Shown piece by piece: positions 4,802-27,336 of a stretch of 64,000 nucleotides of DNA (the stretch's first letter is position 1; each line of letters starts with the position of its first letter). Position numbers and translations under genes: made by a program. Origin of the DNA: Parafannyhessea umbonata (GTDB lineage Bacteria > Actinomycetota > Coriobacteriia > Coriobacteriales > Atopobiaceae); assembly GCF_012844235.1 (NCBI RefSeq), contig NZ_JABAGR010000002.1:124001-188000 (forward strand), written 5' to 3'. The notes beneath the pieces are model-generated. The model worked only from the letters and a program-made list of their open reading frames with translations. It searched no databases and was not told where the DNA came from.

Positions 4802-4940
4802 CGGCTGCCTTTCGCGCGGGCGAGAAAAGCCGCGCGGCGTGCTCGCAGCGTGCCCTCGAAGTTGTATATAAAATTCGCGTTTGGGGTATTCCTCACTCAC
4901 CTGTCGGCGGTGGTCGCCGGCACGAGTGAAAGGAACCGAC

Positions 4941-5948
4941 ATGGGTTTCATCAGCACCGCCGTTCTGGTGGTCATCGTCGTGGCCATCGTGCTCTCCACG
5001 GGGTACGTCGTCAGGCAGCAGCACGTGGCCATCATCGAGCGTCTGGGACGCTTCCACGGATTCGCGGGTCCCGGCTTCCACGTCAAGGCGCCGTTCATCG
5101 ACGTCACGCATGACGTCAGCCTCATGACCGAGGACGAGCACATGACGTTCGACGCCAAGACCAGCGACAACGTCACGATAGAGCTCGACGTCTCCATCCA
5201 GTACCACGTCGACTCGCACGACATGGACGCCCGCCAGGAGTCCGGCGTGTACAAGAGCTTCTACACCCTGCAGGACCCGGTCGGCCAGATGCAGGACTAC
5301 CTCGCGGACGCCCTGCGCTCGCAGATCCCCGCGCGCACGCTCGACGAGGTCTTCAGCGAGAAGGACGCCATCGCCCACGCGATCGACGAGGTCGTCGCCG
5401 CCAAGATGCGTGACTACGGCTACGTGCTCGTGACCACGCTCATCACCAGGATTAAGCTCCCCGGCGAGGTCCAGGAGTCCATGAACCACATCATCGCGTC
5501 CAAGAACAACCTCGAGTCCGCAAAGAACGACGCCGAGGCGGCCCGCGCGAAGACGGTCATCGCGGCGCAGGCAAAGGCGGAGGCCATGGCGGCCGAGGGC
5601 AAGGGCATCGCGGACCAGCGCATCGCCATCGCCCGCGGCATCAAGGAGTCCATCGACACCATCAAGGGCGCCGAGATGAACGAGGGCGAGGCCAACCGCC
5701 TGTTCGAGTTCACCCAGTGGATCGACATGATGAACCAGTACGCCGCGAAGGGGCCCTCCACCGTGGTGCTGCCAAGCGACTTCGGCCAGACGTCGAGCAT
5801 GTTCGACCAGGTCGTGGCCGCGCAGAACGCACCGCGTCCCACGGGTGCGCCGCAGGCGCCGGTCGACCCGTACCGCAGGAGCGGCTCGGAGGGCTGGGGC
5901 GACGCCGACAAGGGCGGCCACGCCGGCTCCGCAAAGTCCCGCAGGTAG
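4941..5948 (+). CDS. SPFH/Band 7 (stomatin-like) membrane protein
   Basis: The 335-residue protein has one N-terminal membrane segment (residues 4-22), then an SPFH/PHB domain (about 23-200, beginning VRQQHVAIIERLGRF) and an Ala/Glu-rich helical stretch that ends with a flexible Pro/Gly-rich tail. SPFH proteins oligomerise as scaffolds on the inner membrane; the cargo here is unknown. The ATG follows GAAAGGAACCGAC. An AT-rich promoter-like element (TATATAAAATT, about 4863-4874) lies in the short upstream region. No NfeD partner is adjacent. Confidence 0.8.
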   Translation: MGFISTAVLVVIVVAIVLSTGYVVRQQHVAIIERLGRFHGFAGPGFHVKAPFIDVTHDVSLMTEDEHMTFDAKTSDNVTIELDVSIQYHVDSHDMDARQESGVYKSFYTLQDPVGQMQDYLADALRSQIPARTLDEVFSEKDAIAHAIDEVVAAKMRDYGYVLVTTLITRIKLPGEVQESMNHIIASKNNLESAKNDAEAARAKTVIAAQAKAEAMAAEGKGIADQRIAIARGIKESIDTIKGAEMNEGEANRLFEFTQWIDMMNQYAAKGPSTVVLPSDFGQTSSMFDQVVAAQNAPRPTGAPQAPVDPYRRSGSEGWGDADKGGHAGSAKSRR

Positions 5949-6003
5949 GGTCGGCGCCAACGTCGGCAGGCGGCGCACGCCGTCGCAGCGCACATTAAAA
6001 AAG

Positions 6004-6034
6004 CCGGGCGAGAAGGGCCGCCCTTCTCGCCCGG
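6004..6034 (-). terminator. intrinsic terminator between convergent genes
   Basis: A perfect 15-bp inverted repeat (CCGGGCGAGAAGGGC and its complement around a single central base) lies between the convergent SPFH and PEBP genes. Read on the minus strand it is followed by six T residues, so it is mainly the terminator of the PEBP gene. Both arms contain the GCGAGAAGG motif that recurs in other gaps of this window. Confidence 0.85.
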
Positions 6035-6064
6035 ACGCTTCCGTGCGTGCGCCTTACCCGTGCG

Positions 6065-6592
6065 CTACGCCCGTGCGGGCAGGTTCGCCTCGGCCCAATC
6101 GATCACGTGCCCGCGCATGGCATGCACGAGCTCGTTTGCCCAGAAGCCCTCGCGAAGGTCTGGCATGACGTCCAGCGCGAATACCCGGAGCGTGTACACG
6201 TGGTCCCGGTCGGGCGGCTGCGGGCCGTTGTAGCGGCAGGTCAGCAGCGGGTCGGAGCTTCCCACGAGCCTGCTCGCGGACGAGTTCTTGCCCTGCACCA
6301 TGCCAAACGACCCCAGGTTCGACGCGTCCTCCGGGAAGGCGAGCCGCCCGTCGCGCGCGAGCGAGGCGTCGATCCCCGCCGCGACCCAGTGGATCCACGT
6401 GAACCCGCACACGGGGATGGAGTCGTAGTCCGTGAACGCGAGCGCAAGCGAGCGCGCGCCCTGCGGTATGCCCTCCACCTCGAAGGGAAACGACGTCGCC
6501 GGCTTCTGCGCGTGCAGGTGCGCGGCGTCCGCGTGCTTCGCGTAGCGGTCCGGAACCATGCCGTTCTTGTCGAGCACAACCTTGATGTCCAT
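6065..6592 (-). CDS. YbhB/YbcL-family PEBP (Raf kinase inhibitor-like) protein
   Basis: The 175-residue phosphatidylethanolamine-binding-protein fold of the bacterial YbhB/YbcL type is supported by AFTDYDSIPVCGFTWIHWVAAGI (its D-x-D and W-x-HW anion-site region, residues about 50-72) and by CRYNGPQPPDRDHVYTLRVFAL, read here as the CYNGP-PP and HxY strands. The function of bacterial members is not settled. The start codon lies 60 bp from the divergent queH start. Confidence 0.85.
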   Translation of the reverse strand: MDIKVVLDKNGMVPDRYAKHADAAHLHAQKPATSFPFEVEGIPQGARSLALAFTDYDSIPVCGFTWIHWVAAGIDASLARDGRLAFPEDASNLGSFGMVQGKNSSASRLVGSSDPLLTCRYNGPQPPDRDHVYTLRVFALDVMPDLREGFWANELVHAMRGHVIDWAEANLPARA

Positions 6593-6652
6593 GCTACCTC
6601 CCGTCGTTGGCGTATGCTCTCATCTTACTAGCGTCGGGCGAGTTCGGGGGGC

Positions 6653-7330
6653 ATGCGGATGGACGGACACTCTCAGGCGGCATCGGGCGCGGCGTCCGCG
6701 CGCACGCCGCTCCTTCTGCACGCATGCTGCGGTCCGTGCTCGCTCGAGCCCGTCAAGTACCTCAGGCGAGAGGGCTTCGAGCCCACCATATGCTGGACGA
6801 ACCCCAACATCCAGCCCATCCGCGAGCACGACCGGCGCCTTGCGGTGCTCGTGGCGTGGGCGCGCGACGTCGCGCGCGTGGACGTGATCGTCGCGGCGGA
6901 CGACCGCGACGCGTGGGAGAGGGGCGTTGCCCCCAAGGGCCTCGACCGCGAGCGCAGGTGCAGGGCGTGCTATGCCGTGAGGCTGGCGGAAAGCTGCCGC
7001 GTGGCGCGCGAGCGGGGTTTCCGCTTCGTGTCGACGACGCTTGCCGTCTCGCCGTACCAGCTGTTCGACGCCTGCCACGACGAGCTCGTGTCGCTTGCGG
7101 CCGCGCATGGCCTCACGCCCGTGTGGCGCGACTTCCGCCCGCACTACCCGGAGTCCGTGGAAGACTCCCGCGCGCTCGGCATGTACCGGCAGAACTACTG
7201 CGGCTGCCGCTTCTCGGCGGCGGAGGCCGCCCTCGAGCGCCACGAGGCACGCGACTGGCGCAAGGCCGCGAAGGCGGCCCGGCGCGAGGGCCGCGAGCTG
7301 CCTCCCCGCCCGGAGTACCTGCCCGGCTAG
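6653..7330 (+). CDS. queH: epoxyqueuosine reductase QueH
   Basis: The 225-residue QueH (DUF208) protein reduces epoxyqueuosine in tRNA to queuosine, the last step of the pathway, and is a non-homologous replacement for QueG. The cysteine motifs expected to hold its metal/4Fe-4S centres are visible: HACCGPC (about residues 23-29), ERRCRACY (about 101-108) and NYCGCRFS (about 182-189). It precedes queA by 160 bp, which supports the pathway call. The ATG at 6653 has only a G-run before it; ATG 6659 is an alternative start. Confidence 0.88.
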   Translation: MRMDGHSQAASGAASARTPLLLHACCGPCSLEPVKYLRREGFEPTICWTNPNIQPIREHDRRLAVLVAWARDVARVDVIVAADDRDAWERGVAPKGLDRERRCRACYAVRLAESCRVARERGFRFVSTTLAVSPYQLFDACHDELVSLAAAHGLTPVWRDFRPHYPESVEDSRALGMYRQNYCGCRFSAAEAALERHEARDWRKAAKAARREGRELPPRPEYLPG

Positions 7331-19268: not shown

Positions 19269-20579
19269 ATGAGCACACAGGAAGACGTCCTCACGATGTC
19301 GCGCGATCGGATCGCGTCGGCCCAGGTGGAGGGCATCCGCAAGACCGCGATCCACTGCTACGAGGACATTCCCTTCTATCACAGGAGCTTCGACGAGGCG
19401 GGGTTCGACCCGTATGCCATCCGCGACCTGGACGACCTCAGGCGCGCGCCGTTCGTGACGAAGCAGGACCTTCGCGACAACTACCCGTACGACATGGTGG
19501 GCGTGCCGAGGGGCGACGTGAAGGAGATCCACATGTCGTCCGGCACGACGGGCGTCGCCACGGTGGCGGCGTACACCGAGGCGGACCTCAGGGCGTGGGC
19601 CGAATGCTTTTCTCGCGCGTTCCGCTTTGCAGGGGTGGGGGCGGACGACGTGTGCCAGATCTGCTACGGCTACGGCCTGTTCACGGGCGGCCTGGGCGCG
19701 CACTACGGGTCGCTTCGCTCCGGTGCGACCGTCATCCCCATTAGCGCCGGCAACACGGAGCGCCAGATCCGCGTGCTGCGCGAGATGGGCACCACGGTGC
19801 TGGAGTGCACGCCCAGCTACGCTATGCACATCGCGGACACGGCGCTTGCCATGGGGATCGACCCTTCCAAGGAGTTCAGCCTGAAGGTGGGCATCCACGG
19901 CGCGGAGGCGTTCAGCGACAACTTCCGTCACGAGCTCGAGCGCAAGCTGGACTACAAGGTGCTGGACATCTACGGCCTGACGGAGACCGGTGGCCCCGGC
20001 CTTGCCGTTGAGTGCCTTGAGCAGGACGGCCTCCACATCGCGGAGGACCACTTCTATTGCGAGGTCATCGACCCCGCGACCGGCGAGGTGCTGCCTGACG
20101 GCGAGTGGGGGGAGCTCGTGGTGACGACGCTCGACCGCGAGGCGAGCCCCGTCGTGCGCTACCGCACGCGCGACATCACGCGGATCCTGCCGGGCGAGTG
20201 CCCGTGCGGCTGCACGCACCGCCGCATCGACCGCCTGCAGGGCCGCACGGACGACATGCTCATCATTCGCGGCGTAAACGTGTTCCCCAGCCAGATAGAG
20301 AACGTGATGAAGACGTTCGAGCAGGTATCCTCTTGGTACCAGATCGAGCTCACCACGAAGAACTACCTGGACGTCGCGACCCTGAAGGTCGAGGCGAACC
20401 CGGACTTTGACATCGACTCGACCGGCGCCATCGAGGAGCTGCAGCGCCAGATCCAGGGCGCGCTCAAGACGGCGCTGTCCGTTGGCATCCGCGTGCGCCT
20501 TGTGGAGCCCATGTCGATATCGCGCTCCGAGGGCAAGGCGAAGCGCATCGTGGACCTGAGGGAGGAGAACCTGAAATGA
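19269..20579 (+). CDS. paaK: phenylacetate-CoA ligase (PaaK-type AMP-forming)
   Basis: The 436-residue adenylate-forming enzyme activates an aryl acid as CoA thioester. ANL motifs are MSSGTTGVATV (P-loop, about residues 92-102), YGYGLFTGGLGAHYG near 135, IYGLTETGGPG near 236 and the hinge/C-terminal DDMLIIRGVNVFPSQIE near 328. In gut anaerobes such genes often act on aryl acetates or related acids made from amino acids; the substrate here is not known. GTTGTTC precedes the ATG with no strong Shine-Dalgarno. It overlaps the next gene by ATGA. Confidence 0.9.
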   Translation: MSTQEDVLTMSRDRIASAQVEGIRKTAIHCYEDIPFYHRSFDEAGFDPYAIRDLDDLRRAPFVTKQDLRDNYPYDMVGVPRGDVKEIHMSSGTTGVATVAAYTEADLRAWAECFSRAFRFAGVGADDVCQICYGYGLFTGGLGAHYGSLRSGATVIPISAGNTERQIRVLREMGTTVLECTPSYAMHIADTALAMGIDPSKEFSLKVGIHGAEAFSDNFRHELERKLDYKVLDIYGLTETGGPGLAVECLEQDGLHIAEDHFYCEVIDPATGEVLPDGEWGELVVTTLDREASPVVRYRTRDITRILPGECPCGCTHRRIDRLQGRTDDMLIIRGVNVFPSQIENVMKTFEQVSSWYQIELTTKNYLDVATLKVEANPDFDIDSTGAIEELQRQIQGALKTALSVGIRVRLVEPMSISRSEGKAKRIVDLREENLK

Positions 20580-21001
20580 TCGACCAGCTCACCGTCTTCC
20601 TGGAGAACTCCGAGGGCAGGCTCGCGAAGCTCTGCCGCGACATCGCTGCGGCGGGCATCGACATGAAGGCCCTCACCATAGCCGACACGCCGGAGTACGG
20701 CGTCGTGCGCATCGTGTGCGACGACGCGCTGCGCGCCCGCGACTATCTGGACGAGAAGGGCTATCGCGCCATGGTCACGAAGGTGGCCGCCATCGAGGTG
20801 CCCAACAGGCCCGGCGGCCTGGCGGAGCTGCTGGGCGTGCTGGACGACCTGGACATCCCCGTGGAGTACGGCTACTGCTTCAGCACGTCCGGCGACCGCG
20901 CCGTGGACATCCTGAAGATCCGCGTGCCGGCGGAGGCGTCGAAGGCCGTGTTCAAGCTGGAGGAGGCCGGCTTCAGGGTGCTGACGCAGGCCGAGCTGTA
21001 G
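20576..21001 (+). CDS. tandem ACT-domain protein
   Basis: The 141-residue protein is two ACT domains in tandem (about residues 1-68 and 69-141), each starting with a small-molecule-binding strand (QLTVFLENSEGRLAKLC and AAIEVPNRPGGLAELL). ACT domains bind amino acids or similar ligands. Such a partner commonly follows paaK genes and probably senses an aromatic amino acid or aryl acid. ATGA overlap with paaK shows coupling. Confidence 0.88.
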   Translation: MIDQLTVFLENSEGRLAKLCRDIAAAGIDMKALTIADTPEYGVVRIVCDDALRARDYLDEKGYRAMVTKVAAIEVPNRPGGLAELLGVLDDLDIPVEYGYCFSTSGDRAVDILKIRVPAEASKAVFKLEEAGFRVLTQAEL

Positions 21002-21065: not shown

Positions 21066-22508
21066 CTACGAGTGGACGTAGACGGTGTCGCCTACCTTGA
21101 CGAGGCCGTAGAGCTCGCGCGCCGCCCTCGGGGGGAGGTTCACGCAGCCGTGGCTTCCCGCATAGGAGTAGATTGATCCGCCGAAGGCGGAGCGCCAGCT
21201 GGCATCGTGCAGGCCCACTGCGTTGCCGACGAACGGCATCCAGTACGCGACGTGGCTCTTGTAGTCGGGCTCGCCGTCGCCGTCCTCGTCCGTGCCGACG
21301 AGCGTCTCGTTCGTGCGCTTCGCGTTGACCTTGAACGTTCCCGTGGGGGTGGCCCGCCCCTCGGACGTGTTGCCGCTCACGAAGTACGAGCGCCAGATGA
21401 CCGAGCCGTCCTCGTCGTAGAAGCGCGCGTACTGGGTGGAGAGGTTCAGGTCTATGTGGCGGCCGCGGCCCTCGTGGCCGGGCGTCTGCGCGGGACGGGT
21501 GGCGGTGACGGCGAGCGGAACCTCGAGGGAGCCGTCCTTCTCGCCCTGCGCGGCGTTGGCGACGGACGCCGCGAGCGAGGCGGCGTCGATGGCGTAGTCG
21601 TGCTCCTCGTCGGACTTCGCGACCTTCTTCGCGAGGGAGTCGCGCGCCCACTGGGCGATGGCGTCACGGTCGAGGCCCACGGAAAGGTCGTCGCCCACGC
21701 GCACCCAGGTGGCGACCGTCTTCTTGTCGAGCTTCGCGAGGGGCTTTCCTTCCTTCGTGAGCGTGATGGCATGGCCGGCGTACGCGTTCGCCGTGTCCAC
21801 GGCCTTCAGAAGGCCGGCGTCCTTGCTCGTGAGCTGCGGGCGGAGGAGCGCGTCGCGTTTGAGGGAGACCTTGGTGTGGAGGCGCGCGACGTCCTTCTCG
21901 ACCTGCGCCTTGACGACGTTGGCGTCGAGCGCCGTGCCGAGCGCCTCCTGCGTGACCTCGAACGTGGACGTCTTCTGGTTCAGGGTGCACCAGGCGTTCT
22001 TGGGCGGCGTGGCGCTCTGGTTGTGAGCCTGGACGGCGGCGTCGACCAGGGCGTCGAGCTTCTTCCTGTTGTAGGCGACGGTCTTGGACACCGTGATGTG
22101 CCTGGGGTGCGTGAGGTCGAGCGCCCACGAGGCGGCGTCGGTCTGGGCCTTCGCGTCGCGGGCGTAGTCTGCGGGGCTGACGTCCAGGTCGATGTCAGTG
22201 GCGCCGATGGCGAAGGTGAGGCCCTGGCCGGCGACGGTCGTCTTCCAGGAGGCGGCGCTCGTCGCGACCTGGCGAGCGAGCTCGGCCTCCGTCATGTTGG
22301 ACACGTCCGCGCCGTTCACGGTGGTACCGGGGACGAAGTGCGAGCCATAGTAGCTTGTGCCCGCGACCTGGCCCGCGACGAGGGCAGTCGCGATGCCGAG
22401 GGCAAGGAGGGGGATCGCCTTCCTGCGGCTCTTGGCTGGCTTGGCGGCCGTTGCGCCGGCTGCGGAATCGGTCTTGCGTGCGTGCTTTGCGGACGTGGGC
22501 TGGGCCAA
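21066..22508 (-). CDS. L,D-transpeptidase (YkuD) with N-terminal anchor
   Basis: The 480-residue protein is a single-pass membrane protein (segment about 30-50 after a basic N-terminus) with a large extracellular part. A region resembling PG-binding repeats (about 60-330) precedes the YkuD catalytic domain (about 350-480). The catalytic signature GLHDASW, with YSYAGSHGCVNLPP, gives His and Cys in the expected HX(14-17)SHGC arrangement. Such enzymes form 3-3 peptidoglycan cross-links or attach proteins. The five-hairpin array lies directly upstream of its start. Confidence 0.9.
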   Translation of the reverse strand: MAQPTSAKHARKTDSAAGATAAKPAKSRRKAIPLLALGIATALVAGQVAGTSYYGSHFVPGTTVNGADVSNMTEAELARQVATSAASWKTTVAGQGLTFAIGATDIDLDVSPADYARDAKAQTDAASWALDLTHPRHITVSKTVAYNRKKLDALVDAAVQAHNQSATPPKNAWCTLNQKTSTFEVTQEALGTALDANVVKAQVEKDVARLHTKVSLKRDALLRPQLTSKDAGLLKAVDTANAYAGHAITLTKEGKPLAKLDKKTVATWVRVGDDLSVGLDRDAIAQWARDSLAKKVAKSDEEHDYAIDAASLAASVANAAQGEKDGSLEVPLAVTATRPAQTPGHEGRGRHIDLNLSTQYARFYDEDGSVIWRSYFVSGNTSEGRATPTGTFKVNAKRTNETLVGTDEDGDGEPDYKSHVAYWMPFVGNAVGLHDASWRSAFGGSIYSYAGSHGCVNLPPRAARELYGLVKVGDTVYVHS

Positions 22509-23053: not shown

Positions 23054-24001
23054 CTACTCGATGCTCGCGAACGCCTCGCGGATGACGTTGCAGGATGAGT
23101 GCATGGCGTCCCTCTCGTCCTGCGAGAGTTCGAGCGGGAGGATCTCCTGGATGCCGTTGCGTCCGAGGATGCATGGCACTCCCACCGAAACGTCCTTCTC
23201 GCCGTACTCGCCCTCGAGGTGGACGGAGAGCGGCGTCACGAGGCGCTCGTTGTGGAGGATGGATGCGATGAGCACGGCGACGACGGAACCGATGCCGAAC
23301 TCCGTGGAGCCCTTGCCGGCGACGATGCGCCCGCCAGAGGTGTGGACGGTGTCCGTGAGCGTGGCGTAGTCGAGCTTGTCTGCGAGCTGCGGGTGGCTGC
23401 GCAGGTACTCCTCGATGCCGATGCCGCCGATGGAGACGTGCGTGCGTGGGATGAACGAGGAGTCGCCGTGCTCGCCCATGCAGAACGCCTCGACCTGGTC
23501 GCGGTCCACGTCCACGATGCTCGCGATGTGGCGCCTGAGGCGGACGGTGTCGAGCGACGTCCCGGTGCTGAACACCCTCGAGCGCGGGAGGTCGAGCTTG
23601 CGATAGAAGTACTCTGCCACGACGTCCGCGGGGTTGGACACGCAGATGAGGAAGCCGGAGAAACCGGACTTCGCGATGGGGTCGACGATGCTGCCCAGGA
23701 TCGAGAACGTGCTCGCGAGCATCTGGAGGCGCGTCTCGCCGGGTCGACGGCTGCGGCCGGCTGTCATCACGATGAAGCTCGCGTCCGCGCAGTCGTCGTA
23801 GGTGCCCACGCGGATGTGCACGTGGCGCCTGGTGGCTGTGAGCATGTCCTTCAGGTCTTCCACCTGTGCGTTTGCAGCGTCCTCGTTGATGTCCAGGAAC
23901 ACGATCTCGTCCGCGTACTGGCTGACCATGAGGTTCATGGCGACGTGGCTGCCCACGTTACCGGCTCCGATGATTACGACCTTGCGTGCTAGCTGCGTCA
24001 T
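23054..24001 (-). CDS. L-lactate/malate dehydrogenase family protein
   Basis: The 315-residue NAD-dependent 2-hydroxyacid dehydrogenase has the Rossmann GAGNVGSHVA (residues about 12-21), catalytic His in GEHGDSS (about 175-181), and the aspartate-containing region VSNPADVV near 122. The active-site loop reads RSRRPGETR. The residue before the RPGETR block is Arg, at the place where lactate dehydrogenases carry Gln and malate dehydrogenases carry Arg, so substrate choice is uncertain (pyruvate/lactate, oxaloacetate/malate or a branched oxoacid). ATG 24001 follows GAGGGGTGG. Confidence 0.85.
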   Translation of the reverse strand: MTQLARKVVIIGAGNVGSHVAMNLMVSQYADEIVFLDINEDAANAQVEDLKDMLTATRRHVHIRVGTYDDCADASFIVMTAGRSRRPGETRLQMLASTFSILGSIVDPIAKSGFSGFLICVSNPADVVAEYFYRKLDLPRSRVFSTGTSLDTVRLRRHIASIVDVDRDQVEAFCMGEHGDSSFIPRTHVSIGGIGIEEYLRSHPQLADKLDYATLTDTVHTSGGRIVAGKGSTEFGIGSVVAVLIASILHNERLVTPLSVHLEGEYGEKDVSVGVPCILGRNGIQEILPLELSQDERDAMHSSCNVIREAFASIE

Positions 24002-24223
24002 GGCTCCACCCCTCTTAAGGTTGCATTTTGTTTCTATTGTGAAGTTCGATGGAGGAGCTATGGGCGAGGACTTCAAATTTGCCGTTGGCGGATTGAGCCT
24101 GTTACCTCGCACGATAGTACTTGACACGCTCGATTGTGGGTGTCGATCTTCCAGACTGCGCCGCCTCCCGCATCAATGCCCGCGCATCATCTGCGCGCCT
24201 CACGCGGGCATGGACGAATGTTG

Positions 24224-24263: not shown

Positions 24264-26702
24264 ATGTCAGGCATCGACATGTCAGATGGCAGATCTTCGA
24301 CAACGCGCGCGGACGGCGAGGCCCTGCGCGAGGAGGGCACGCTCGCGTCCGTGGAGATCGGCCAGACCGTCACCATATCCGTCGTGGGAGGGGAGGGTGC
24401 GCTCCGCCAGCACTTCCTGGACATGGGCGTCATACCCGGCGCGCAGATCACGCTCGAGAAGTACGCGCCCATGGGCGATCCCATGGAGTTCAGCATCCAT
24501 GGCTACCAGCTGACGCTGCGCATTGCGGATGCGCGCAAGATTCGCGTCACGACGGAGGCGTGCCCCGTGCCGGCCGGCGCCGCGCGCGGGCGCCACAGGA
24601 GCATTGGGCACCCGGGCCTTGGCGAGGACGGCCTGCCCGACAAGGTGGACGTGCGCACGAGCGACCACTCGCATCCGGTGCCTGAGGGAGAAGTGCTTCG
24701 CTTCGCGCTCGCGGGCAACCAGAACTGCGGCAAGACCACCCTGTTCAACCAGCTCACGGGCTCGAACCAGCACGTGGGCAACTTCCCGGGCGTCACAGTG
24801 GACCGCAAGAGCGGCGCCATCAAGGGACACCCCGACACAGACGTGACGGACCTGCCGGGCATCTACTCGCTCTCTCCGTACAGCCCGGAGGAGCTCGTGA
24901 GCCGCCAGTACATACTGGAGGAGCAGCCAAACGCCATCATCAACATCGTGGACGCCACGAACATAGAGCGCAACCTGTACCTGACGATGCAGCTGATGGA
25001 GCTGGACAAGCCCATGGTGCTCGCGCTCAACATGATGGACGAGGTCCAGGGCAACGGCGGCACGATCGACGTGAACCTGATGGAGGACATGCTGGGCATC
25101 CCCGTGGTGCCGATATCGGCCGTCAAGGGCGAGGGCGTGGACGAGCTCGTGAGCCACGCCATACACGTGGCGCGCTACCAGGAGCTTCCCGGCCGGCAGG
25201 ACTTCTGCGACCCCAGCGACCACGGCGGCGCCGTGCACCGCTGCCTGCACGCCATCATGCACCTGATAGAGGACCACGCGAAGCGCGCGAACATTCCCGT
25301 GCGCTTCGCCGCGTCGAAGCTGGTGGAGGGCGACGCCCACGTGACGGAGGCCCTCGCGCTAGAGAAGAACGAGCTTGACGCCGTGGAGCACATCGTGCAC
25401 CAGATGGAGGAGGAGCGCGGCCTCGACCGCGCCGCCGCCATCGCGGACATGCGCTTCTCGTTCATCGAGAAGATCGTGTCCGCCGCGGTCGTGAAGCCGC
25501 ATGCCTCGCGCGAGCAGGAGCGCAGCCGCAGGATCGACCGCGTCCTGACCGGCAAGTACACGGCCATCCCCATGTTCGTGCTCATCATGGGCGCCGTGTT
25601 CTTCCTCACGTTCAACGTCATCGGGCTCGCGCTGCAGAACCTCGTCGCGGCGGGCGTCGACGCGCTCACGGCCGCGGCGGACGCGGGCCTCACGGCGGCC
25701 GGCGTGAACCCGGTGCTGCACTCCCTCGTGATCGGCGGCATCTTCAACGCTGTCGGCACGGTGCTGCCCATCGCGCCGATCATCGTGACCATGTTCTTCT
25801 TCCTGTCGCTTCTGGAGGACACGGGCTACATGGCGCGCGTCGCGTTCTTCATGGACAAGCTGCTGCGCAAGATCGGCCTGTCCGGCCGCTCCATCGTGCC
25901 CATGCTCGTGGGCTTCGGCTGCACGGTGCCCGCCGTCATGTCCGCCCGCACGCTGCCGTCCGAGCGCGACCGCAAGCTCACCATCGCGCTCACGCCGTTC
26001 ATGAGCTGCACCACCAAGCTCACGATCTACGGCTACTTCAGCGCGGCGTTCTTCCCGGGCAAGGGCGGCCTCGTGATGCTCTGCCTGTACCTCACGGGCA
26101 TCGTCGTCGGCGTGCTCGTGGCGCTCGTCACGCACAAGACCGTCGACCGCGCCGAGGCCGTCCCGTTTGTGATGGAGCTTCCCAACTATCGCCTTCCCAG
26201 CGCGAAGTCCGTGCTCATGCTCATGTGGGAGAAGACCAAGGACTTCCTGCACCGGGCATTCACCGTGGTGTTCGCGGCCGCCGTCGTCGTGTGGTTCCTG
26301 CAGTACTTCACGCCGACCCTCGCGGTCGCCAAGGACGCGCGCGATTCGATCCTGGCGGCCATCGCGGCCTGGATCTCCCCGGTCTTCTCGCCCCTGGGCT
26401 TTGGCGACTGGCGCATCACCACGGCGCTCATCGCGGGCTTCATGGCAAAGGAGATCGTGGTCGCGACGCTTTCCGTCCTGTTTGGCTCCACGGCGCAGCT
26501 GCTCGCCACGCTCACGCCGCTCTCCGTCGTGTCGCTTTTGGTGTTCTGCCTGCTGTACACCCCGTGCGTCGCGGCGATCGCGGCCATCAGGCACGAGCTT
26601 GGCGGCCGCTGGGCGCTGGGCATCGTGGTGTTCCAGTGCGGCATCGCCTACCTCGTGGCGCTTCTGGTGCACGTGGTCGGCGCCCTGCTGGGCTTCGCGT
26701 AG
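24264..26702 (+). CDS. feoB: FeoA-FeoB fusion ferrous iron transporter
   Basis: The 812-residue protein joins FeoA and FeoB. Residues about 26-105 are a FeoA SH3-like domain (FLDMGVIPGAQITLEK). Residues about 150-310 are the GTPase: G1 GNQNCGKTTLF, G2 GNFPGVTVD, G3 DLPGIYS, G4 NMMDE. The rest has about ten membrane segments with the paired Gate core, including GFGCTVPAVMSART and FMAKEIVVAT. It imports Fe2+ across the inner membrane. The ATG follows GAAAGG. Separate FeoA/FeoC are not adjacent. Confidence 0.95.
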   Translation: MSGIDMSDGRSSTTRADGEALREEGTLASVEIGQTVTISVVGGEGALRQHFLDMGVIPGAQITLEKYAPMGDPMEFSIHGYQLTLRIADARKIRVTTEACPVPAGAARGRHRSIGHPGLGEDGLPDKVDVRTSDHSHPVPEGEVLRFALAGNQNCGKTTLFNQLTGSNQHVGNFPGVTVDRKSGAIKGHPDTDVTDLPGIYSLSPYSPEELVSRQYILEEQPNAIINIVDATNIERNLYLTMQLMELDKPMVLALNMMDEVQGNGGTIDVNLMEDMLGIPVVPISAVKGEGVDELVSHAIHVARYQELPGRQDFCDPSDHGGAVHRCLHAIMHLIEDHAKRANIPVRFAASKLVEGDAHVTEALALEKNELDAVEHIVHQMEEERGLDRAAAIADMRFSFIEKIVSAAVVKPHASREQERSRRIDRVLTGKYTAIPMFVLIMGAVFFLTFNVIGLALQNLVAAGVDALTAAADAGLTAAGVNPVLHSLVIGGIFNAVGTVLPIAPIIVTMFFFLSLLEDTGYMARVAFFMDKLLRKIGLSGRSIVPMLVGFGCTVPAVMSARTLPSERDRKLTIALTPFMSCTTKLTIYGYFSAAFFPGKGGLVMLCLYLTGIVVGVLVALVTHKTVDRAEAVPFVMELPNYRLPSAKSVLMLMWEKTKDFLHRAFTVVFAAAVVVWFLQYFTPTLAVAKDARDSILAAIAAWISPVFSPLGFGDWRITTALIAGFMAKEIVVATLSVLFGSTAQLLATLTPLSVVSLLVFCLLYTPCVAAIAAIRHELGGRWALGIVVFQCGIAYLVALLVHVVGALLGFA

Positions 26703-26797
26703 GGGTAGACTGCCGTTCGCCAGAGGTGAAGGAGCATCCCGGTTTCCCATAGGATAGAATGTCGGAAAGTCAGAAATTCATACTCTTGGAGGCCGGG

Positions 26798-27061
26798 ATG
26801 CTCACGACGCTTAAGGACAAAGGTCAGGTTACGATACCGAAGAAGCTAGTCAATCAGCTCGGCCTTGTCTCTGGTGACACTTTCGATGTCTACATCGAGG
26901 ATGGGGAGATCCGCTTTGTCCCGGTAGTGATCTATCCCAAGAAGAAGATTGAAGAACTGGAGCGTCTTGCCAGTGAGGCAGAGGAGGGGCTATCCAGCGG
27001 GGACCTTCCAGTTTTTGAAGATGCGGATGATGCGATTGCAGATTTGCATCGGGCCGGCTGA
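26798..27061 (+). CDS. AbrB/SpoVT-type antitoxin
   Basis: The 87-residue protein has an N-terminal swapped-hairpin AbrB domain (LKDKGQVTIPKKLVNQLGL at about 4-22), which would bind DNA and repress its own operon, and a C-terminal acidic helix likely to cover the toxin. ATG 26798 follows TTGGAGG; the ORF begins 13 codons earlier without a ribosome site. It overlaps the toxin start by one base (TGATG). The GC content is clearly below that of neighbours, which suggests transfer. Confidence 0.82.
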   Translation: MLTTLKDKGQVTIPKKLVNQLGLVSGDTFDVYIEDGEIRFVPVVIYPKKKIEELERLASEAEEGLSSGDLPVFEDADDAIADLHRAG

Positions 27062-27336
27062 TGCCATATAAGCTCGTGCTTGCGCCTTCGTTTAAGAAGG
27101 CGTATGCGAAGCTTGGGAAGAAGGAGCAGGCGCAGGTCGAAAACAAGATTCGGCAGCTTGCTATTGATCCGTGGCACCCTTCCTTGCGCGTCAAGCATAT
27201 ACGTGCTTCACATGAGTTTGAGTGCAGCGTGAACATGGACGTGAGAATAGCGTTTAAGTTCGAGGAGGGTCATCTCATCCTGTTGTTGGACGTGGGTCAT
27301 CATGATGCATTGCTCCGTCGGCGTACAAGAAGATAG
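27061..27336 (+). CDS. RelE/YafQ-type mRNA interferase toxin
   Basis: The 91-residue basic protein has the RelE/ParE fold pattern: PSFKKAYAKLGKKEQAQVENKI helices (about 9-30), then strands with HIRASHEFECSVNMDVRIAFKF and LLLDVGHHDALL at the end. The paired HH near the C-terminus is typical of YafQ-like ribosome-dependent nucleases. It would cut mRNA when the antitoxin is lost. It is coupled to the AbrB-type gene and shares its lower GC. Confidence 0.82.
   Translation: MPYKLVLAPSFKKAYAKLGKKEQAQVENKIRQLAIDPWHPSLRVKHIRASHEFECSVNMDVRIAFKFEEGHLILLLDVGHHDALLRRRTRR

Follow-up and report, generated by a model that had tools for sequence, protein, structure and literature searches.

A lactate dehydrogenase-like protein of Parafannyhessea umbonata with a malate-type arginine at the specificity position

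The dehydrogenase gene and its surroundings

The window, by which we mean the whole stretch of DNA analyzed, spans 64,000 nucleotides of a Parafannyhessea umbonata contig (NZ_JABAGR010000002.1, positions 124,001 to 188,000). It carries on its minus strand an intact open reading frame for a dehydrogenase, with the ATG at 24001 and the stop codon ending at 23054; the coordinates 23054-24001 given in the original prediction are correct, and the strand, absent there, is minus. Residue numbers such as 107 and 247 follow the superfamily convention, and a residue followed by such a number (R102, T246) denotes the standard position. The features considered below are:

24005..24014, minus strand: purine-rich stretch GAGGGGTGGA, a possible ribosome-binding site judging from the sequence
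23456..23458, minus strand: codon of S182, standard position 199 by alignment (an acid in LDH and Met in MDH type 3, but Ser in this protein; role according to PMC9486893)
23054..24001, minus strand: LDH/MDH-superfamily 2-hydroxyacid dehydrogenase of 315 aa with Arg at standard position 102 (TIGR01771, Ldh_1_N, Ldh_1_C and PDB matches)
23729..23755, minus strand: codons of the active-site (specificity) loop RSRRPGETR, residues 83-91, aligned with solved LDHs
23747..23749, minus strand: codon of R85, standard position 102 by alignment (Gln in LDH, Arg in MDH)
23468..23470, minus strand: codon of H178, the catalytic His195 (His in all 227 rows tallied)
23291..23305, minus strand: codons of T233-E234-F235-G236-I237, positions 246-250 (T246 and I250 LDH-like, E247 typical of the clade)

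The purine-rich stretch contains GAGGGG just 5′ of the ATG. Comparison with a relative of 97% amino acid identity gives a dN of 0.013 and a dS of 0.23 (dN/dS ~0.06), and comparison with a relative of 85% identity gives a dN of 0.11 and a dS of 0.47; the gene is under purifying selection. Because of the GAGGGG and the low dN/dS against these relatives, the gene looks real. Both the NAD-binding and the C-terminal Pfam domains (PF00056/PF02866; Ldh_1_N, Ldh_1_C) are found in the product, and the superfamily residues R109, D168, R171 and H195 are all present.

The gene lies between an L,D-transpeptidase gene (21066-22508) and a FeoA-FeoB fusion gene (24264-26702), neighbors that do not point to a pathway. 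The latter, divergent from the dehydrogenase gene, joins FeoA and FeoB domains in one protein of 812 aa. Elsewhere in the window, a MazE-like antitoxin gene (26759-27061) overlaps by one base a ParE-like toxin gene (27061-27336), both with Pfam matches, that of the toxin clearing its cut-off by just 2 bits, and a phenylacetate-CoA-ligase-like gene (19269-21001), under the PaaK cut-off, overlaps a gene for a pair of ACT domains. No Rfam family reaches its gathering score in the window.

The specificity loop and the family tree

The window protein scores 310.1 bits against the NCBIfam L-LDH model TIGR01771, 6.5 above the cut-off of 303.55, and a pipeline relying on this model would label it "L-lactate dehydrogenase". 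It falls under the cut-off of 339 for the LDH subfamily model NF000824 (302.4) and far under that of 351.85 for the MDH model TIGR01763 (169.5 bits). Its top PDB matches are LDHs.

A scan of genome contigs yielded 239 relatives, and the best 80 of the 239 loci were kept. A search of 121 Atopobiaceae genomes found matches in 84; orthologues of at least 50% identity occur in 46 of the 121 (in one, G098, as a fragment only), and five more of the 121 hold an R102 group of 44% identity. We aligned 190 proteins (the window protein, three solved LDHs and 186 from the loci) together with 25 MDH and 14 LDH references, 229 rows in all. Ten duplicate ORFs and one copy of the window protein were left out, and 16 matches of the 121-genome search, including the G098 fragment and a 33% match of G075, are not among the rows. 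The 25 MDH references were taken from the top scores among the 61 genomes that pass the TIGR01763 cut-off. The LDH references come from 17 rows over the TIGR01771 cut-off, from which the proteins under test (the window gene, its G003 orthologue and the M102 paralogue) were excluded. The tally covers 227 of the 229 rows, two A102 rows lying outside the groups, and its signature counts are of rows, not of independent events.

The loop TAGRSRRPGETR corresponds to residues 80-91 of the window protein. The original prediction held that a malate-type Arg stands two residues before the loop proline, and this is borne out: R85 lies two residues ahead of P87 and aligns without gaps with the Gln of three solved LDHs, whose loops read NQKPGETR (1ldb), NQKPGQTR (3wsv) and PQKPGETR (2zqy). 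We take these structures to be from Bacillus stearothermophilus, Enterococcus mundtii and Lactobacillus casei, respectively. With the alignment free of gaps here, a Gln at this position through re-gapping is excluded, and the GEHGD and GETR motifs are retained, as the prediction also said. Position 102 is Gln in 19 of 19 LDH rows (the 14 TIGR01771 references, the three PDB LDHs and two family rows chosen for Gln) and Arg in all 25 MDH references; the window protein has the Arg of bacterial MDHs in place of the Gln of canonical L-LDHs. R102 occurs in 111 of 191 aligned rows, one of the 111 duplicating the window protein. According to PMC9486893, residue 102 is the main specificity residue.

In a first tree of 215 rows, 50 rows with R102, the window protein among them, form a clade (support 0.893) that is nested within a larger one of 163 rows (support 1.0), the latter marked by a Glu after T246. 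The larger clade also includes another R102 group, chiefly from Firmicutes (55 rows, support 0.936), and a sub-branch of 58 rows (support 0.962) that mostly carry Ala, Pro, Asp, Ser, Glu or Lys at 102, with Arg in three. In a second tree of 109 rows, the larger clade has a UFBoot value of 73, or 99 without a two-row Clostridioides pair, and the R102 clade of the window protein, whose sister is a single Anaerostipes protein (L026), has a value of 87. The M102 paralogues come next (joint clade UFBoot 100), followed by the Q102 LDHs (88). With MDH as outgroup, the larger clade and the M102 paralogues together are sister to the Q102 LDHs, in a tree that does not include the published intermediate subgroups.

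The minus-strand LDH-like ORFs of L163 and L165 encode proteins that combine R102 with Q199 and branch within the Q102 LDH clade, perhaps through a separate Gln-to-Arg change. Contigs of Clostridioides difficile (L020 and L030, ~4900-6912) carry two adjacent relatives, one with the enlarged loop SSEGPLRRQNTTR and the other with PLPEKNQTR.

Residue 199 and the remaining signature positions

Residues 102 and 199 were absent from all patterns of the contig scan. At position 199, all 19 Q102 LDH rows have Glu, all 25 bacterial MDH references have Met, and the window protein has Ser. An acid at this position is described in PMC9486893 as always present in LDHs, for charge neutrality upon loop closure. 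It is missing from all 110 R102 rows, window protein included. The 50 rows of the window protein's R102 clade have Ser (30), Met (15) or Ile (5), and another 58 R102 rows elsewhere in the larger clade have Ser (48), Gln (9) or Ala (1), the placing of 102 being doubtful in L020, L030 and L170, which have unusual loops. R102 and a non-acidic 199 are coupled in at least two places of the tree, because the two R102 rows nested in the LDH clade have Q199. Loss of the acid is nevertheless not confined to R102 proteins, since the sub-branch with other residues at 102 mostly lacks E199 (Glu in 13 of 55 rows, Gln in 39, Ala in 3). Judged from the alignment, residue 199, which the original prediction did not mention, is an independent second support for its malate reading.

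The remaining positions are LDH-like, with one exception. The 19 Q102 LDH rows have T246, with Tyr, Asn, Phe or Ser at 247 and Ile (17) or Val (2) at 250, and all 25 MDH references have R102, M107, M199, A246 and P250. The 50 rows of the window clade have R102, Glu (45) or Gln (5) at 107, and T246, E247 and I250 throughout; T246 and E247 are likewise constant in the larger clade's 58 remaining R102 rows. Because the scan patterns included the peptide KGSTEFGI, the loci that the scan kept were in part selected for T246, E247 and I250, whose conservation there is to that extent built in. Residue 68 of the signature in the literature was left out, being unreliably placed in the alignment, where the MDH references read Gly rather than Asp, and the FBP-site residues 173 and 188 do not enter the evidence. 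Compared with canonical L-LDHs (TIGR01771; 3wsv, 2zqy and 1ldb), the window protein thus shares the fold domains, the catalytic residues, E107, T246 (T233) and I250 (I237), but has Arg for Gln at 102, Ser (S182) for the acid at 199 and an unusual Glu at 247. With MalDH type 3-like bacterial MDHs (TIGR01763), it shares R102 and a non-acidic 199 but has E107 rather than Met, T246 rather than Ala and I250 rather than Pro, in addition to E247; of the MalDH type 3 residues M199, A/S246 and P250, it has none, reading Ser, Thr and Ile.

In the genome that encodes the window protein, 2.3 Mb in size and 99.94% complete, Ldh_1_C genes number only two, the window gene and one at C1:255349-256269 (L225:7329-8288). 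The product of the latter scores 365.1 bits on TIGR01771 and 375.8 on NF000824 (cut-offs 303.55 and 339), belongs to the M102 rows and has E199, as do all 18 M102 paralogue rows. This second LDH also lacks Gln102: its loop, APMPKDSNDR, has one extra residue and aligns Met at 102, a pattern found in 18 rows, and the M102 loop is possibly a further solution to pyruvate specificity.

These data bear on whether the window protein could be an ordinary L-lactate dehydrogenase able to accommodate Arg at 102. Its TIGR01771 score above the cut-off, its LDH-like T246, I250 and E107 and its best PDB matches would all fit such an enzyme, and, according to PMC4109310, the influence of residue 102 can be dampened by epistasis. 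Against this, the acid at 199, said to be universal in LDHs (PMC9486893), is lost in every R102 row, and the same genome encodes a better-scoring LDH that retains E199. We regard an ordinary LDH as quite unlikely.

Gene neighborhoods, genome content and proposed function

All 187 target genes were recovered by a codon-model gene caller; two crude callers overlooked 65 and 40 of them. With the codon-model caller, no conserved operon was detected for the close relatives of the window gene, many of whose flanks span 1.5 kb; of the 69 listed R102 loci with high GC, three have a divergent FeoAB gene next to the target, many flanks again being just 1.5 kb. ABC-transporter-like genes are frequent neighbors of R102 relatives, chiefly in Firmicutes (L012, L017, L035 and similar loci; 28 and 27 of the 147 loci called, all R102). 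The transporter may resemble TrpXYZ, and a T-box lies near transporter-like genes in L008; an RNA search of 11 Firmicute loci found one T-box and one tRNA. A DAHP synthase gene lies directly 5′ of an R102 relative in 10 loci, its family confirmed for one representative. In the R102 group of 44% identity, found in L041, L043 and similar loci of Atopobiaceae MAGs, the dehydrogenase gene of five loci is, by eye, 3′ of a pyruvate:ferredoxin oxidoreductase-like gene, and in three loci of this group, oxalyl-CoA decarboxylase and formyl-CoA transferase genes, one representative of each confirmed, lie within three genes. A glutamate-dehydrogenase-like gene, assigned by eye, adjoins five R102 relatives and is two genes from a sixth.

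Some of these neighbors hint at substrates other than oxaloacetate. The ABC-transporter-like and DAHP synthase genes beside R102 relatives suggest aromatic amino acids and hence a bulkier 2-oxoacid, aromatic or branched, with R102 then contacting something other than a substrate carboxylate. The sub-branch with Ala, Pro, Asp, Ser, Glu or Lys at 102 within the larger clade is in keeping with this, and 1hyh, L-2-hydroxyisocaproate dehydrogenase, is the third-best PDB match of a member with Asp at 102. However, 1hyh is not among the best 60 of the 156 PDB matches of the window protein, the neighbors listed around the window gene and in its close relatives (many flanks 1.5 kb) include none of this kind, and a buried Arg with no acid at 199 would be a more suitable partner for a second carboxylate than for a side chain without charge, which makes a bulky substrate rather unlikely. 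The same charge logic would apply to another anionic 2-oxoacid, such as 2-oxoglutarate, sulfopyruvate or an oxalate-related acid, and glutamate-dehydrogenase-like, oxalyl-CoA decarboxylase and formyl-CoA transferase genes do occur near some R102 relatives. These neighbors belong to other sub-branches, though, not to the closest relatives of the window protein, and oxaloacetate is a common central metabolite in this organism, which has PEPCK and PEPC genes; we find reduction of a different anionic acid decidedly improbable. The original prediction had offered oxaloacetate or a branched oxoacid in place of pyruvate, and it is oxaloacetate that has the better support, from R102 and the non-acidic 199, the branched oxoacid faring less well with 1hyh not close.

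Genome content bears on malate metabolism. TIGR01763 finds no MDH above its cut-off in any of the 121 Atopobiaceae genomes and finds one in 61 of 149 genomes of the phylum sample; the model is blind to some kinds of MDH (an E. coli control went unmatched), and other MDHs are excluded in the window's own genome only, by the Ldh_1_C search. This genome has genes for PEP carboxykinase and PEP carboxylase and, at a distance from the dehydrogenase gene, a fumC gene beside a malic enzyme gene. By TIGR00979 at E <= 1e-20, fumC is present in 45 of the 46 genomes with an orthologue of at least 50% identity and in 48 of the 75 without one, an association confounded by kinship, and is absent from the five genomes of the 44% identical group. 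Class I fumarase was found in 5 of the 121 genomes, not including the window's own. Two candidates for fumarate reductase both fall under the model cut-off.

On the strength of these residues and gene contents, we consider the window protein to be, with moderate probability, an NADH-dependent L-2-hydroxyacid dehydrogenase on an LDH scaffold that prefers 2-oxoacids bearing a second carboxylate, most likely oxaloacetate, and so serves as the cell's malate dehydrogenase. The reaction of the superfamily is ordered, with NADH binding before the substrate; a preference for NADH over NADPH is assumed here from the family. The loop would close over the substrate, carrying R85 and R91, R85 (R102) would pair with the second carboxylate of oxaloacetate, and H178 and D151 would form the proton relay; lacking an acid at 199, the enzyme should find pyruvate a poor substrate. 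Oxaloacetate from PEP carboxylase or PEP carboxykinase would in this way be converted to malate for FumC and malic enzyme. In favor of malate dehydrogenase activity, the other LDH gene of the genome outscores the window protein on both LDH models. The active site also resembles that of a published LDH mutant: the single change Gln102Arg makes the enzyme as efficient on oxaloacetate as the wild type is on pyruvate (PMC4109310, B. subtilis; PMC3268733, G. stearothermophilus), and 1ldb, a solved relative of an LDH mutated in this manner, has E107, T246 and I250. The A. fulgidus MalDH (R102, T246, P250) accepts oxaloacetate and not pyruvate (PMC9486893).

Other observations argue against malate dehydrogenase activity. 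The overall sequence is far under the MDH model and groups with LDHs in both trees, Glu247 could restore the negative charge, and malate can be made here from fumarate or pyruvate without any MDH. Some pyruvate side activity is plausible, because T246 and I250 are LDH-like and are reported to be unfavorable for oxaloacetate (PMC9486893). Some T246 intermediates accept both oxaloacetate and pyruvate (PMC9486893); in C. cellulolyticum, adding an mdh mutation to an ldh mutant reduced lactate still more (PMC3268733). Because of these intermediates and the C. cellulolyticum result, R102 need not exclude pyruvate.

Proteins of this kind are already known, both as mixed-signature MDH/LDH intermediates and as Ccel_0137. 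The MalDH/LDH intermediate group was reportedly treated by Brochier-Armanet and Madern (Biochimie, 2021). Its members, like the window protein, mix LDH and MDH signature residues and pair R102 with T246; the common combinations join R102 with P250, whereas the window protein joins R102 with I250 and E247 (PMC9486893). This last combination is not among the common ones that PMC9486893 names in a list that is incomplete. Ccel_0137 of Clostridium cellulolyticum was first predicted to be an LDH, has Arg at the specificity position and proved by knockout to be the main MDH, the mutant retaining 28% of wild-type MDH activity (PMC3268733). By description rather than by sequence, it resembles the window protein in its first prediction, its Arg and a separate LDH paralogue in the genome, and differs in adjoining a malic enzyme gene. 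Such adjacency, as in Ccel_0137-0138, is absent from the loci of the relatives (one query, flanks of 1.5-6 kb), the sole malic-enzyme matches being two loci chosen for that gene. A literature search covering titles and the beginnings of abstracts found no paper on the window protein or on an Atopobiaceae malate dehydrogenase as such.

LDH-like R102 proteins turned out to be widespread in gut anaerobes. More tentatively, and with considerable doubt, the proteins that combine R102, a non-acidic 199, T246, E247 and I250 might form an unrecognized MDH family of gut Coriobacteria and Firmicutes that is built on an LDH scaffold and labeled as LDH in databases; this would be a natural counterpart of the engineered Gln102Arg enzyme in which the balancing acid has moved from 199 to 247, and the only MDH of most Atopobiaceae that carry it. 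In a community study, only one of ten abundant MAGs (ACT2) had genes for succinate formation via PEPCK and malate dehydrogenase, and the Olsenella_B MAGs of the same table apparently lacked that route, the missing gene being unstated there (PMC10263058). The window gene is an ordinary metabolic gene, though probably one that is mislabeled. If the malate assignment is true, these bacteria have a malate dehydrogenase that TIGR01771-based annotation wrongly reports as a second LDH, and the step from oxaloacetate to malate drops out of metabolic reconstructions. The clade would then also offer natural test cases for how residues 102, 199, 246, 247 and 250 share control of specificity.
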